Shown here: positions 33,871-37,911 of the stretch, piece by piece
Layout: every line of letters begins with the position of its first letter
How positions within the stretch are numbered: position 1 is the stretch's first letter
NCBI GenBank assembly: GCA_030426265.1
Contig: JAUHYP010000005.1
Coordinates: 1 to 64,000 of the forward strand
DNA length: 64,000 nucleotides
Direction: 5' to 3'
DNA from: Gammaproteobacteria bacterium
Lineage (GTDB): Bacteria > Pseudomonadota > Gammaproteobacteria > Xanthomonadales > SZUA-36
Notes under the pieces: generated by a model
What the model was told of the DNA's origin: nothing
What the model saw: only the letters and a program-made list of their open reading frames with translations
The model's database searches: none
Made by a program: the position numbers and the translations under genes

Positions 33871-35138
33871 GGAGCCTGTTGAGTGCGCTCCTCGCACTGA
33901 CCCTTCCGATATTCCCCACCGGCCCCGCCGGCGCCTGGCCGCTGGACGGCTACCCGGACACCGGCATCCGCCGCCTGGAATACGACCGCCTGGTGGTCGC
34001 CGGAGAATTTCAGGGCACCGCACCGCCGGTCGGAGCCCGCCTGCCGACTTCCGCCATCGACCTGCGCCTCACCGGGCTCGCGGACCTGGACCTGCCCACA
34101 CCCGACCCGGCCTTCACCGATGAGATCAAGGGCCTGCTGGGTGTGAATGCCGATGTCTACGCCCTGGCCGTGCTGGACCTGAGTGACCTCGACGACATCA
34201 CCTACGCCGAGTGGCGTGGTGACTACCACCAGAACGTCGGCAGCGTGGGCAAGCTGGTGGCGGTGCTGGGGCTGTTGCAGGCCCTGGCCGACACCTGGCC
34301 GGAGGATACGGGCCAGCGCTGGGAGGTCATGAAGCAGACCCCCGTGATCGCGGACAGCTTCTCCCAGAGCGACCACCACACGGTGCGTTTCTACGACCCG
34401 GACAGCCGCACCACCCACCGCCGCTCCATCGCCATCGACGACGAGGCCAGCCTGTTCGAGTACCTGGACTGGACGGTCTCGGTCAGCTCCAACTCCGCCG
34501 CCGCCATGGTGATGCGCGAGGCCATGCTGTTGCGCGAACTCGGCCAGGATTATCCACCCGACAACGAGGCCATCCCCGGCATCCTGGACGGCCTGGGCAG
34601 TTCGGGCCGCACGACCCTGTTCCAGGAGACCTTCTGGGCGCCCATGGCGCGCAACGGCATCGACCTGGCCGATTTCCGGCAGGGCAGTTTCTTCACCCGC
34701 GGCGGCAAGGCCCGGGTCAACGGCGGCGGCGACAGCTACGCCACGGTGCGCGCCCTGGCGCTCTACGCCCTGCGCATGGAGCAGGGCCGCCTGGTGGACG
34801 AATGGTCCAGCCGCCAGCTCAAGCGCCTGCTCTACCTCACCGAACGCCGCATCCGCTACGCCAGCTCGCCGAAACTCCGGGATGCGGCCGTGTGGTTCAA
34901 GAGCGGCTCGCTGTACGGTTGCAAGGAAGAGCCCGGCTTCGACTGCGGCGCCTACCGGGGCAACGTGCGCAACTACATGAATTCCCTGGCCATCGTCGAG
35001 CAGGAAGTCGACGGCCAACGCATCCACTACATCTCGGCCCTCATCTCCAACAAGCTCCGCGAGAACGCCGCCGTCGCCCACCAGAACCTCGGCGGCGCCG
35101 TCCACGAACTCATCCTGGCCCGCCACGCCGCGAACTGA
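33867..35138 (+). CDS. Exported serine hydrolase, class A beta-lactamase/PBP type
   Basis: 423 aa with a signal peptide ending AGA. Catalytic SxxK is Ser126-Val-Gly-Lys129 in NVGSVGKL. The second motif is SSN (207-209) in SVSSNSAAA. The third is KSG in WFKSGSLYG. This is the class A beta-lactamase/low-mass PBP fold with an unusual N-terminal region of about 80 residues. It starts inside the stop of the dikinase-like gene (ATGA), so the two proteins are translated together and may act on the same envelope or extracellular material. Confidence 0.8.
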   Translation: MRSLLSALLALTLPIFPTGPAGAWPLDGYPDTGIRRLEYDRLVVAGEFQGTAPPVGARLPTSAIDLRLTGLADLDLPTPDPAFTDEIKGLLGVNADVYALAVLDLSDLDDITYAEWRGDYHQNVGSVGKLVAVLGLLQALADTWPEDTGQRWEVMKQTPVIADSFSQSDHHTVRFYDPDSRTTHRRSIAIDDEASLFEYLDWTVSVSSNSAAAMVMREAMLLRELGQDYPPDNEAIPGILDGLGSSGRTTLFQETFWAPMARNGIDLADFRQGSFFTRGGKARVNGGGDSYATVRALALYALRMEQGRLVDEWSSRQLKRLLYLTERRIRYASSPKLRDAAVWFKSGSLYGCKEEPGFDCGAYRGNVRNYMNSLAIVEQEVDGQRIHYISALISNKLRENAAVAHQNLGGAVHELILARHAAN

Positions 35139-35264
35139 TCCCGGTTGGGGCCGGACGGGGGCCCCGTGTGGGTCCGGATGGGCGCGTTTTGGGTCCGAGC
35201 CATTGTTTTACTGATGCGTGTCGTTTGCCGCCGGTTGGTTCTTGCTTCGTAGGGCGGCTCGGTA

Positions 35265-35451
35265 CGTGACCCCCTGCACCCGGATCGGTCCGTTGGCCTT
35301 CGGCTGCCCTCCCGATCCTGCGCTTGGTGGGGCCGGCCGACAGGCCATCCTGGCCTGATGCGGCCTCAATCCGCCATCCCTGGCGGATTGACCCCAGTCG
35401 CTCCGGCTCACTCGGCAACGGCCCTGATTGATCCGGGTGCAGGGGGTCACG
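35265..35451 (-). repeat. Palindromic element A (187 bp, 22-base inverted ends)
   Basis: The ends are exact 22-base inverted repeats (35265-35286 and 35430-35451; CGTGACCCCCTGCACCCGG core). Read on the minus strand it aligns along its whole length with element B at 35709-35899. Inside is a hairpin with arms CAATCCGCCA and TGGCGGATTG, then an invariant hairpin CAGGCCA-GGA-TGGCCTG. The element is the centre of a larger imperfect palindrome, 35171-35543. No coding potential or transposase. It may be a MITE-like element or a structured RNA. Confidence 0.75.
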
Positions 35452-35708
35452 CACCGAGCCTCGATCGGGTGAGCCGGACCGGCGGCAACTGGGGTATCGC
35501 TTCCTTCCTTGGCCTGGGGAACCCAAAGCACGCCCATCCGGCCCCACCCACCCCGTCCTTCGGGGAAGGGCGATGGTGCATCACGTACTCCGGCCGTTCA
35601 CCGGCCGCCACCTACCACCTCAACGAGACGACCCCAAACCCTCACCAAACCGCTCCCCTGACGGAGGCCGTGTCTTAAGCCAACACGAGTCCCCGGTGTA
35701 GCCCCGTG

Positions 35709-35899
35709 CCCTGACCCCCTTGTACCTGGCTCAATCAGGACCGCTGCCGAGTGGCCCTGTGCGACTGGGGCAAATTGGCCATGGATGGCCAATTTTGGTC
35801 GCATCAGGCCAGGATGGCCTGTCGGCCGGCCCCACCAAGCACAGGGACGCGAGGGAAGCCGAAGGCCAGCGGTTCGAGCCAGGTGCAAGGGGGTCAGGG
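35709..35899 (+). repeat. Palindromic element B (191 bp, 24-base inverted ends)
   Basis: The ends are 24-base inverted repeats with one mismatch (35709-35732 and 35876-35899). The sequence aligns with element A in opposite orientation. The first internal hairpin has arms AAATTGGCCA and TGGCCAATTT, different in sequence from A but still complementary. The second, CAGGCCA-GGA-TGGCCTG, is identical in both. It lies 73 bp downstream of the stop codon of the convergent minus-strand hydrolase gene. Confidence 0.75.
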
Positions 35900-35971
35900 T
35901 ATGGGGCGACCCTACGAAGGACAACGGGCCGAGCCAGGTGCAGGGGGGTCAGGGTGCGGGGCGGCCCTGCG

Positions 35972-36892
35972 CTACGGATTGGGGATGAGCCGGTCGTGGA
36001 CGGCGGGGGCCAGGCGGCGGAGCCAGTTGTCGCCGTTGGGGTCCTGGGCCAGGGCCACGAGGATGTAGGCGTCATTCTCGGTCACGACCACGACGCTGTC
36101 GGCGTGGTAGCGCTTCCAGGTGCCGGACTTGCGGTACATCTCCTGGATGTCGCGGCCCTTCAGGCCCGCCACGAACTTGTGCGGGATCGCCGGTTTCGAG
36201 AGTGCCTCGAGCATGAGCTCGGTCCGCTCGGGGCTGACCAGCTCGCCATTGAGCAGCAGCCAGTAGAAGCGCGCCGCCTGCCAGGTGGTGGCCGCGTGGG
36301 ACAGTCCCTTGAGCGGCTCGCGGTGATGCGCCTGCCGCTTGGCGTAGTCCTTGCCGACCCACAGCCCGCCGCCCATGGCGGGGTCGTAGAACTGGTACCG
36401 GCCTTCGGCCAGCAGGTCGAGCAGCCATTCACGGCCCACCAGGGCCAGCACGCGGGTCGCGCAGGGGTTGCAGGAGTTGCGGATCATGGCGACCAGGTCG
36501 TCGTGCAGGTACTGGTCGAGCTCGAAGCGCCCCTGGTCCAGGGACACGGCCGCGCCGTAGAGGATGGCGATCTTCGGCAGACTGGCCGCGTAGAACATGC
36601 GATGTCCGCCCAGCAGGCCCAGGCCATCGAAGCCCCAGGGATCTTCGCCGGAGCCATCCATGCGCACCAGGGCGACGGCCAGCCGCCCGTCTTTTACGGC
36701 CTTCTGCAGGCCCAGGGAAGCCACGGCCTCGTCCAACACCGCCTGTACGGGTCCACCGCCCTTGGTGGGAAACGTCTCCGAAGACGGGTCGGCCGCCCAC
36801 GCCACAGCGCCGGAACACAGCAGAAGCAAGGCCAGCAGGCGGACCGCAAAACCAGCGTGGCTTCGGTGATGTACAGGAATTTTCTGGTTCAA
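35972..36892 (-). CDS. Exported serine hydrolase, class A beta-lactamase type
   Basis: 306 aa. The N-terminal hydrophobic stretch (VRLLALLLLCSGAVAWA) is a signal peptide. SxxK is Ser104-Leu-Pro-Lys107 in YAASLPKIAIL. SxN is Ser140-Cys-Asn142 in RNSCNPCATR. KTG is replaced by KSG in YRKSGTWKRYHAD. The fold is clearly class A-like; drug resistance cannot be inferred. The recorded start is TTG 36892 and is weakly supported. Confidence 0.8.
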   Translation of the reverse strand: MNQKIPVHHRSHAGFAVRLLALLLLCSGAVAWAADPSSETFPTKGGGPVQAVLDEAVASLGLQKAVKDGRLAVALVRMDGSGEDPWGFDGLGLLGGHRMFYAASLPKIAILYGAAVSLDQGRFELDQYLHDDLVAMIRNSCNPCATRVLALVGREWLLDLLAEGRYQFYDPAMGGGLWVGKDYAKRQAHHREPLKGLSHAATTWQAARFYWLLLNGELVSPERTELMLEALSKPAIPHKFVAGLKGRDIQEMYRKSGTWKRYHADSVVVVTENDAYILVALAQDPNGDNWLRRLAPAVHDRLIPNP

Positions 36893-37020
36893 GTGGGAGC
36901 CGGCCGGAAGGTTTAGCGCCCGCGCATTGTACGCGCGCTACGGGCTGGCCGGCGTGTCTTCCCCGGCCAGGCATTTGGACTATGCTGGATAGACCCCTTC
37001 GACGACAGCGAGTTCGCCTC

Positions 37021-37911
37021 ATGACTCTGAAAGCACCGACGCTGGCCCTGATCGCCTCCCTCACCCCCCTGGTCCTCAACGACACTGCACTGGCGCAGGA
37101 CACCCGCGCCGCGGAACGTGACTGCATCGATACCGTCGAGCGGGATTACCGCCCACGCGGCAGCCTGAGGGTGGTCCACTCGGAGTGGGCCCAGGCCGGC
37201 ACCCAGGTGATCGTCGAGGCCGGCGGCCAGCGCTGGACCTGCATGGCCGACGACGAGGGCGACGTGTGGAACGTTTCCGGCGGGGGCGGTTCGTCCAGCT
37301 CCAGCCACCACGGCTACGATGACGATGATGGGGGCTACGGCGGCGGCGTCACCCTGTACAAGGACACCGAATTCCGGGGCACCAGCGAGACCTTCCACGA
37401 TGACGTGTCCTACCTGGGCAACACGCGCATCGGCAATGACCAGGCCTCCTCCATCCGGGTTTCCGGCGGTTGCCGAGCCACCCTGTTCTATGACGCCAAT
37501 TTCCGCGGGCGGTCCGTTGAGATCAGCCGGGACGAAAGCCAGCTGGCGCACACCGCCATCGGCAACGACGAGGCGTCTTCGATGGAAGTGGATTGTCGGG
37601 GCGGAAGCTACGACGATGATGACGACGACGGCTACGGCGGTGGCTACGGCCGCAGCGTGACGCTGTACAAGGATTCCGAGTACCGCGGGACGAGCTTCAG
37701 CCTGAACCGGGACTCACGTTACCTCGGGGACACGCCCATCGGTAACGACGAGCTGTCGTCCATCCGCGTGCCGAGCGGTTGCCGGGTGTGGCTCTACGCC
37801 GACTCGGAATTCCGTGGCGCCTCCGTCGAGCTCGACGACGACGAGCGCTACCTGGGCAACACGCGCATCGGCAACGACAACGTGTCCTCCATCGAGGTGG
37901 ACTGCCGCTGA
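37021..37911 (+). CDS. Exported beta/gamma-crystallin protein with four calcium motifs
   Basis: 296 aa from ATG 37021; the signal peptide ends ALA-Q. A short Cys-containing N-terminal domain (to about residue 80) is followed by a Ser/Gly/Asp linker and two beta/gamma-crystallin domains separated by a second Asp/Gly-rich linker. Each domain has two Greek-key motifs of the form TLYKDTEFRG. The calcium signature (N/D)(N/D)xx(S/T)S occurs four times as NDQASS, NDEASS, NDELSS and NDNVSS. It is probably a calcium-binding envelope or secreted protein, possibly related to I36-type inhibitors. The earlier in-frame ATG at 36982 is less likely because it precedes the signal peptide by 13 residues. Confidence 0.85.
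   Translation: MTLKAPTLALIASLTPLVLNDTALAQDTRAAERDCIDTVERDYRPRGSLRVVHSEWAQAGTQVIVEAGGQRWTCMADDEGDVWNVSGGGGSSSSSHHGYDDDDGGYGGGVTLYKDTEFRGTSETFHDDVSYLGNTRIGNDQASSIRVSGGCRATLFYDANFRGRSVEISRDESQLAHTAIGNDEASSMEVDCRGGSYDDDDDDGYGGGYGRSVTLYKDSEYRGTSFSLNRDSRYLGDTPIGNDELSSIRVPSGCRVWLYADSEFRGASVELDDDERYLGNTRIGNDNVSSIEVDCR

Follow-up and report, generated by a model that had tools for sequence, protein, structure and literature searches.

TwoAYGGAY (Rfam RF01731) was listed in 2010 as an RNA of the human gut, gamma-Proteobacteria and Clostridiales (PMC2864571). In 2014 it was still described as a family of unknown function, for which binding to CsrA had been proposed from two motif matches (PMC4333381). 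The sponge RNAs CsrB, CsrC and RsmX/Y/Z display the CAGGA(U/A/C)G or ANGGAN motif in hairpin loops. In CsrB the motif is repeated as CAGGA(U/A/C)G, exposed in loops or elsewhere in single-stranded segments; an ANGGAN hexaloop is preferred by RsmE, the sites bridged by CsrA are separated by 10-63 nt, and hairpins selected for CsrA by SELEX mostly have four or fewer pairs (PMC7652899). REPINs and BIMEs are found as dispersed units in the form of inverted doublets, which are intergenic, form hairpins and undergo compensatory changes (PMC3116915). Dispersed intergenic repeats are found also in P. fluorescens, among which R200, 320 bp long and present in 47 copies in strain SBW25 (PMC2718517).

The window analysed here is a stretch of 64,000 nucleotides (G000:C27:1-64000) from a 3.6-Mb draft genome. 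It hosts two elements, A and B, which resemble the TwoAYGGAY RNA in having a stem that carries two hairpins with GGA loops, but cover only part of the 168-position model (positions 45-113 in A, 43-124 in B). Both have a long outer stem, are arranged as a divergent pair and belong to dispersed repeats, all features of which the descriptions of TwoAYGGAY in the accessible portions of PMC2864571 and PMC4333381 make no mention. Like REPINs and BIMEs, the unit is an inverted doublet; in contrast to them, each arm is a branched structure of about 200 nt, against 20-40 bp for a REP, and has no link to RAYTs. Dispersal in intergenic regions is shared with the P. fluorescens repeats as well, but identity with R200 is only a lead. 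No report of the paired dispersed form, or of a CsrA/RsmA-linked repeat of this kind, was found in a literature search that extended neither to supplements nor to most subscription journals.

Architecture of the paired elements

Elements A and B lie where the first-pass annotation had placed them, and their hairpins match its description. They are alignable in opposite orientation, as inverted arms of 177 nt (35270-35446 and 35716-35892), 82% complementary and 269 nt apart. The arms of hairpin 1 do differ between A and B on both sides with pairing kept (Table 1). The extent proposed for the region, 35171-35899, has instead to be enlarged: positions 9-766 of a 771-bp query align to contig C56 of the same genome, and the repeated unit spans about 35158-35915. 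Read on the sense strand, each element consists of a long closing stem leading to a branched region with two apical GGA-loop hairpins. In the family alignment the branched region comprises, besides the two apical hairpins, a small GCCGAAGGC hairpin and a helix bearing a G-A/G-A step; as the copies are aligned, 80 of 125 retain this tandem step on both sides. Only the loop of hairpin 1 in B is a literal AYGGAY.

Table 1. Features of the composite repeat in the window
Feature	Position	Strand	Basis
Composite repeat unit holding A and B	35158-35915		C56, C41, C78 and C98 of the same genome match nearly end to end, 74-90% identity
Element A, 31-bp outer stem (arms 35256-35286 / 35430-35460, 97% complementary)	35256-35460	sense minus	inverted-repeat search and fold
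RNA core of element A	35288-35424	minus	R1 128.8 bits; RF01731 at 35329-35394
Element A hairpin 1, CAATCCGCCA-GGGA-TGGCGGATTG, sense loop AGGGAT	35367-35390	minus	sequence and fold
Element A hairpin 2, CAGGCCA-GGA-TGGCCTG, sense loop AGGAT	35341-35357	minus	sequence and fold
Middle spacer	35461-35697		consensus scan and alignment
Element B, 35-nt outer stem (arms 35698-35732 / 35876-35910, 89% complementary)	35698-35910	sense plus	inverted-repeat search and fold
RNA core of element B	35738-35874	plus	R1 139.4 bits; RF01731 36.6 bits
Element B hairpin 1, AAATTGGCCA-TGGA-TGGCCAATTT, loop ATGGAT	35772-35795	plus	sequence and fold
Element B hairpin 2, CAGGCCA-GGA-TGGCCTG, loop AGGAT	35805-35821	plus	sequence and fold
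Right-end 55-bp tandem duplication (35860-35914 / 35915-35969, 84%)	35860-35969	plus	repeat comparison

The gap hosting A and B is bounded on the left by a plus-strand gene ending at 35138, which has no Pfam match, and on the right by a minus-strand gene ending at 35972, which encodes a Beta-lactamase2 domain. A further 27-nt inverted repeat (35168-35194 and 35521-35547, 89%) encloses element A inside the composite. Near the repeat, the gene at 36982-37908 has matches to Beta/Gamma crystallin and to peptidase inhibitor I36.

Structure and family of the core

Folded as RNA, element A reaches -149.2 kcal/mol (z -10.6) and element B -157.6 kcal/mol (z -12.9), and in either case none of 200 shuffles is as stable. 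For the opposite strand of B the fold is weaker (-134, z -9.1). The sense strand of B is nearly as striking when folded as single-stranded DNA (z -11.8), and folding alone therefore cannot separate RNA from DNA.

The compensatory change noticed between A and B was followed over collected copies by means of a covariance model and pair covariation, and turned out to be real and general, in 24 and then in 125 copies. In 24 copies, drawn from four genomes and aligned with MAFFT, with the structure taken from the folds of B and of these copies, 33 of the 48 core pairs change on both sides, a level reached by none of 500 shuffles. Paired cells amount to 91%, against 72% in shuffles, and drop to 41-43% when the structure is slid by one column. 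The structure that RNAalifold itself derives from a longer alignment of the same copies shows compensatory change at 23 of 35 pairs. With 125 copies, double-sided change extends to each of the 48 pairs, and double-change cells number 1751 against 520 in shuffles, in an alignment which is fitted to the model and biased towards it; here as in the smaller set loci were hand-chosen from search matches, copies are related, and counts do not equal events. The changes are well illustrated by one pair of hairpin 1, which is A-U in 37 copies, U-A in 36, C-G in 26 and G-C in 22. Hairpin 2, defined as invariant in the first-pass annotation, has indeed the same sequence in the two elements of the window; elsewhere in the family, however, 4 of its 6 pairs have undergone change on both sides. 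The covariation observed in the two sets strongly supports a selected structure.

Wobble pairs in the core stems are polarized to one strand, with G-U exceeding A-C by 41 to 12 in one count, where two columns supply 22 of the 41 G-U, and by 247 to 74 in the 125 copies. We take this polarity to reflect a core selected as RNA or as single-stranded sense DNA. The G-U excess is located in the lower helices, hairpins 1 and 2 being almost wobble-free and devoid of it. Polarity in the outer arms is small (69 G-U versus 46 A-C in 39 copies of the genus, counted with a permissive aligner, and 141 versus 98 in a further count), and these arms could be maintained at either the RNA or the DNA level. In 63 of 123 copies the outer stem scores better than all its shuffles; a looser stem aligner run on the 123 copies, similar to the one behind the 39-copy count, left real and shuffled arms inseparable. 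A long outer stem had been considered as a trait defining the family, and was discarded because it fails in most copies of genomes G139, G199, G211, G293, G321, G063 and G325.

A match to a described family, which the first-pass annotation had named as an outcome speaking against its reading, was found for the RNA core. Element A scores 44.9 bits against RF01731, above the gathering cut-off of 43, and element B remains under the cut-off and fails on its own. Seven of the 11 matches listed for this genome reach the cut-off, and matches to RF01731 occur in 4 of the 6 genomes of the genus. Among 26 selected carriers of the repeat, 21 match RF01731 at E <=1e-4 and 19 hold at least one copy above the gathering score. 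The core belongs to RF01731, or stands at its edge; what is new is its paired and dispersed form. Both the identity of the core and its structure may be regarded as highly probable. Copies of RF01731 number at least 69 and at least 71 in two genomes of about 6 Mb, with 71 candidates scored in each genome. An element from one of them aligns to a Pseudomonas phage record with 94% identity over 68% of the query, and the genus of the two has been taken as Pseudomonas for this reason.

Dispersal of the repeat and candidate mobilizing enzymes

The 771-bp query has 36 DNA matches in its own genome. In addition to the four near-whole units listed in Table 1, partial copies reside on contigs C21, C4, C65, C51 and C97, and the sequences flanking the unit do not align between copies when compared by eye. 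Matches at the DNA level were found in 4 of 41 genomes, all of the same genus. The composite is a multi-copy sequence residing at different loci, the structure of which is kept by compensatory change.

The distribution widens when copies are searched by structure. R1, a covariance model built from 24 copies, identifies matches in 24 of the 39 genomes of the family at E <=0.001, with 15 matches in this genome, 20 in G002 and 7 in G050. At E <=1e-4, under stricter filters by which weak matches are lost, matches were found in 19 of 274 genomes of the class and in 25 of 398 genomes of the phylum; all the latter fall inside the class, from which part or even most of the 398 may come. A pattern scan retrieved 22 contigs, including one of Hydrocarboniphaga effusa AP103. 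R1, run on three of the 22, confirmed this species and a Hydrocarboniphaga MAG, and did not confirm a contig from the scan labelled as Spirochaetaceae.

In the 75 sources scanned we counted 83 units, 43 of which are single, 38 double and 2 triple. All but one of the two-element units (37/38) are divergent. The inverted doublet typical of REPINs is found here too, yet 43 of the 83 units are single copies. A dispersed repeat unit is very likely. Units of G211 and G321 are bounded by ten-base inverted ends, TTTCGCACGC and GCGTGCGAAA, with an inner AT-rich hairpin, and comparable AT-rich hairpins were noticed in G139 and G063, in all cases by eye. Terminal inverted ends, as expected for MITEs, were not seen in G000, nor were target-site duplications seen, by eye, in nine G211/G321 units. 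In G325 (L099) the palindrome CCGTCATTCCCGCGAAAGCGGGAATCCAG, which we take to be a common repeat, lies near an element.

The first-pass annotation had left open a choice between a structured RNA and a mobile element recognized by its shape. The former is sustained by the RF01731-like core and its wobble polarity, and the composite is dispersed as a mobile element would be; no accompanying transposase, to which recognition by shape might be attributed, has been found. RAYTs were suggested as mobilizers by the presence of GGGGTCAG in the outer stem in G000, and of single RAYTs in G000, G001 and G005. They have been rejected because their presence does not track the elements and their loci host none. 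Y1_Tnp (RAYT) genes were found in 14 of 18 carriers and in 8 of 12 non-carriers among 30 genomes (Fisher p 0.68), and the carriers lacking them are G002, G008, G009 and G050, three of which are assemblies less than 90% complete. R1 finds no match in the three loci where the genus has a RAYT, and the arrangement of REPINs, in which the cognate RAYT is beside the repeat, is thus missing. RAYT genes with GGGGTCAGAGT ends (L028, L029, L030) adjoin in G001 and G005 a gyrB/parE-like gene, identified by eye. The RAYT copy in G000 is shorter, apparently interrupted, and lies near a contig end.

Autonomous copies were searched for in the compared loci among stop-to-stop ORFs of at least 90 aa, considering the 25 largest recurrent groups, and none was found. 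The longest member of ten of these groups was compared to Pfam. Five of them have no family, and are taken to be spurious ORFs of the repeats; the others match PriA, CN_hydrolase, glycyl-tRNA synthetase, RNB/RNase R-type and aminotransferase families, and none is a transposase. A coding role of the middle spacer is equally unsupported, the recurrent family-less ORFs having been scanned with no Pfam family. A gene annotated as transposase beside a TwoAYGGAY element in Pseudomonas phage record MT121968.1 (L191 3030-4465) was discarded too: it is of IS3 type (rve, HTH_21), and judging by eye it appears to have split the repeat.

Apical loops, CsrA and alternative readings

Outside the G002 loci, 108 of 110 copies have GGA in hairpin 1 and 99 have it in hairpin 2, the other 11 lacking it there; wherever GGA is found in both loops (99 copies), the two motifs are separated by 22-27 nt. 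The three most common loops of hairpin 2, CAGGATG, CAGGAAG and CAGGACG, are those repeated in CsrB as CAGGA(U/A/C)G, and for hairpin 1 the ANGGAN hexaloop is matched in most cases. Consensus GGA loops at a distance that CsrA could bridge, as in sRNAs targeting this protein, are present in most copies, hairpin 1 in most copies of G002 being the exception. In this genome 13 of 15 copies lack the GGA in hairpin 1, yet R1 matches are 20, and therefore the GGA loop of hairpin 1 is not necessary for spreading. Many repeats of G002 (L036-L042) have an altered hairpin 1 loop, CTTCA for instance, with hairpin 2 replaced by a longer unrelated segment. In 100 of 125 copies the stem of hairpin 1 runs for 8-10 pairs with no interruption; it is longer than most SELEX hairpins, and may bind CsrA less well. 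The csrA gene was found in 27 of the 30 genomes tested, including this one; G050 has 7 R1 matches but no csrA match, in an assembly 82% complete. As csrA is nearly everywhere, also in element-free genomes, its pattern is not diagnostic. The elements differ from CsrB, CsrC and RsmX/Y/Z in having two loops each and many copies per genome, rather than many loops per RNA, and in that binding is putative. That RNA from the elements binds CsrA is, judging from these motifs, a serious possibility just short of probable.

A and B may be viewed as the diverging arms of one palindromic repeat, REPIN-like, dispersed and non-autonomous. Each arm encodes, in the direction leading away from the middle, a core of TwoAYGGAY type made of a closing stem, a helix with the tandem G-A step and two GGA-loop hairpins held at a fixed distance. 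We infer that the elements are transcribed; a transcribed arm might engage both sites of a CsrA/RsmA dimer through its pair of GGA loops, and as a consequence either titrate CsrA, or place it on a transcript. Against this reading, single copies between co-directional genes have no sense preference (5 sense, 10 antisense), and no promoter-like site was recognized in 35100-36000. Copies would be spread by an enzyme acting in trans, as REPINs are, which judging from the RAYT distribution is not a RAYT. The entire chain, from the dispersed palindromic repeat to the CsrA-binding arm RNAs, is to be taken as tentative, falling slightly below an even chance. If gamma-proteobacterial TwoAYGGAY is the arm of a dispersed paired palindrome, and its loops fit a CsrA dimer, the binding partner of the RNA becomes directly testable, and so does the notion of a mobile repeat acting as a distributed regulator sponge. 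One may go further, and imagine that mobile palindromic repeats carry CsrA/RsmA decoy RNAs in their arms, about 70 copies or more in some genomes, and that gain and loss of repeats tune the Csr/Rsm regulon. Such an extension, drawn from sequence comparisons, appears unlikely at present. If true, a selfish repeat would act at the same time as a distributed sponge, and an explanation would be at hand for TwoAYGGAY, an orphan RNA family.

Alternatively, the palindrome may be mobile at the DNA level, its hairpins and long stems being recognized as single-stranded DNA in trans by an HUH or another transposase, as for REPINs and IS200/IS605 ends, with no role for RNA. The dispersed unit is indeed a composite of two inverted elements, its outer stems often beat every shuffle and have little strand polarity, B folds nearly as well as DNA, the G211/G321 units have inverted ends, and G002 is rich in copies most of which have lost the GGA loop of hairpin 1. 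Compensatory changes and doublets are moreover known for REPINs (PMC3116915). Yet Y1_Tnp does not track the elements and the RAYT loci of the genus hold none, the core helices have sense-strand polarity, and the CsrA consensus and the spacing of the loops would be left unexplained; a scenario confined to DNA is somewhat unlikely.

The elements might also serve only as terminators, or stabilizers of mRNA ends, between convergent genes, copies being kept where they are least harmful. Gaps hosting elements have convergent flanks in 26 of 63 cases, and the other gaps of these loci in 9 of 96 (odds ratio 6.8, p 3.5e-6), as counted with a crude ORF caller on copies that are partly non-independent. 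The window copy lies as well between a plus-strand and a minus-strand gene, and the same Tail-repeat-Tail bias is known for P. fluorescens repeats (PMC2718517). The bias may however only reflect purging elsewhere, and termination requires neither a conserved branched core nor a pair of loops constant in motif and spacing. A consensus scan of 35100-36000, middle spacer included, found neither sigma-70-like promoters nor terminators. A terminator or stabilizer function as the sole role is improbable.

The arm RNA of a dispersed repeat has finally to be weighed against an ancestral chromosomal sRNA gene, located for example beside rnpB and passively duplicated, a highly improbable origin. In favour of it, 5 of 27 genomes have R1 elements no more than 300 nt from rnpB (G001, G005, G008, G009 and G025, the copy in the latter being the only match found there in the class search). 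Against it, no such copy was found in the other 22 at E <=0.001, some rnpB loci being at contig ends, and the copies upstream of rnpB differ in orientation between G001 and G005. The copies near rnpB are L173 1285-2345, L180 1287-2343, L164 483-619, L182 1943-2081 and L187 2136-2259. The pair downstream of rnpB has the same place and orientation in G001 and G005, and its outer arms differ between the two genomes by paired changes, as seen by eye.
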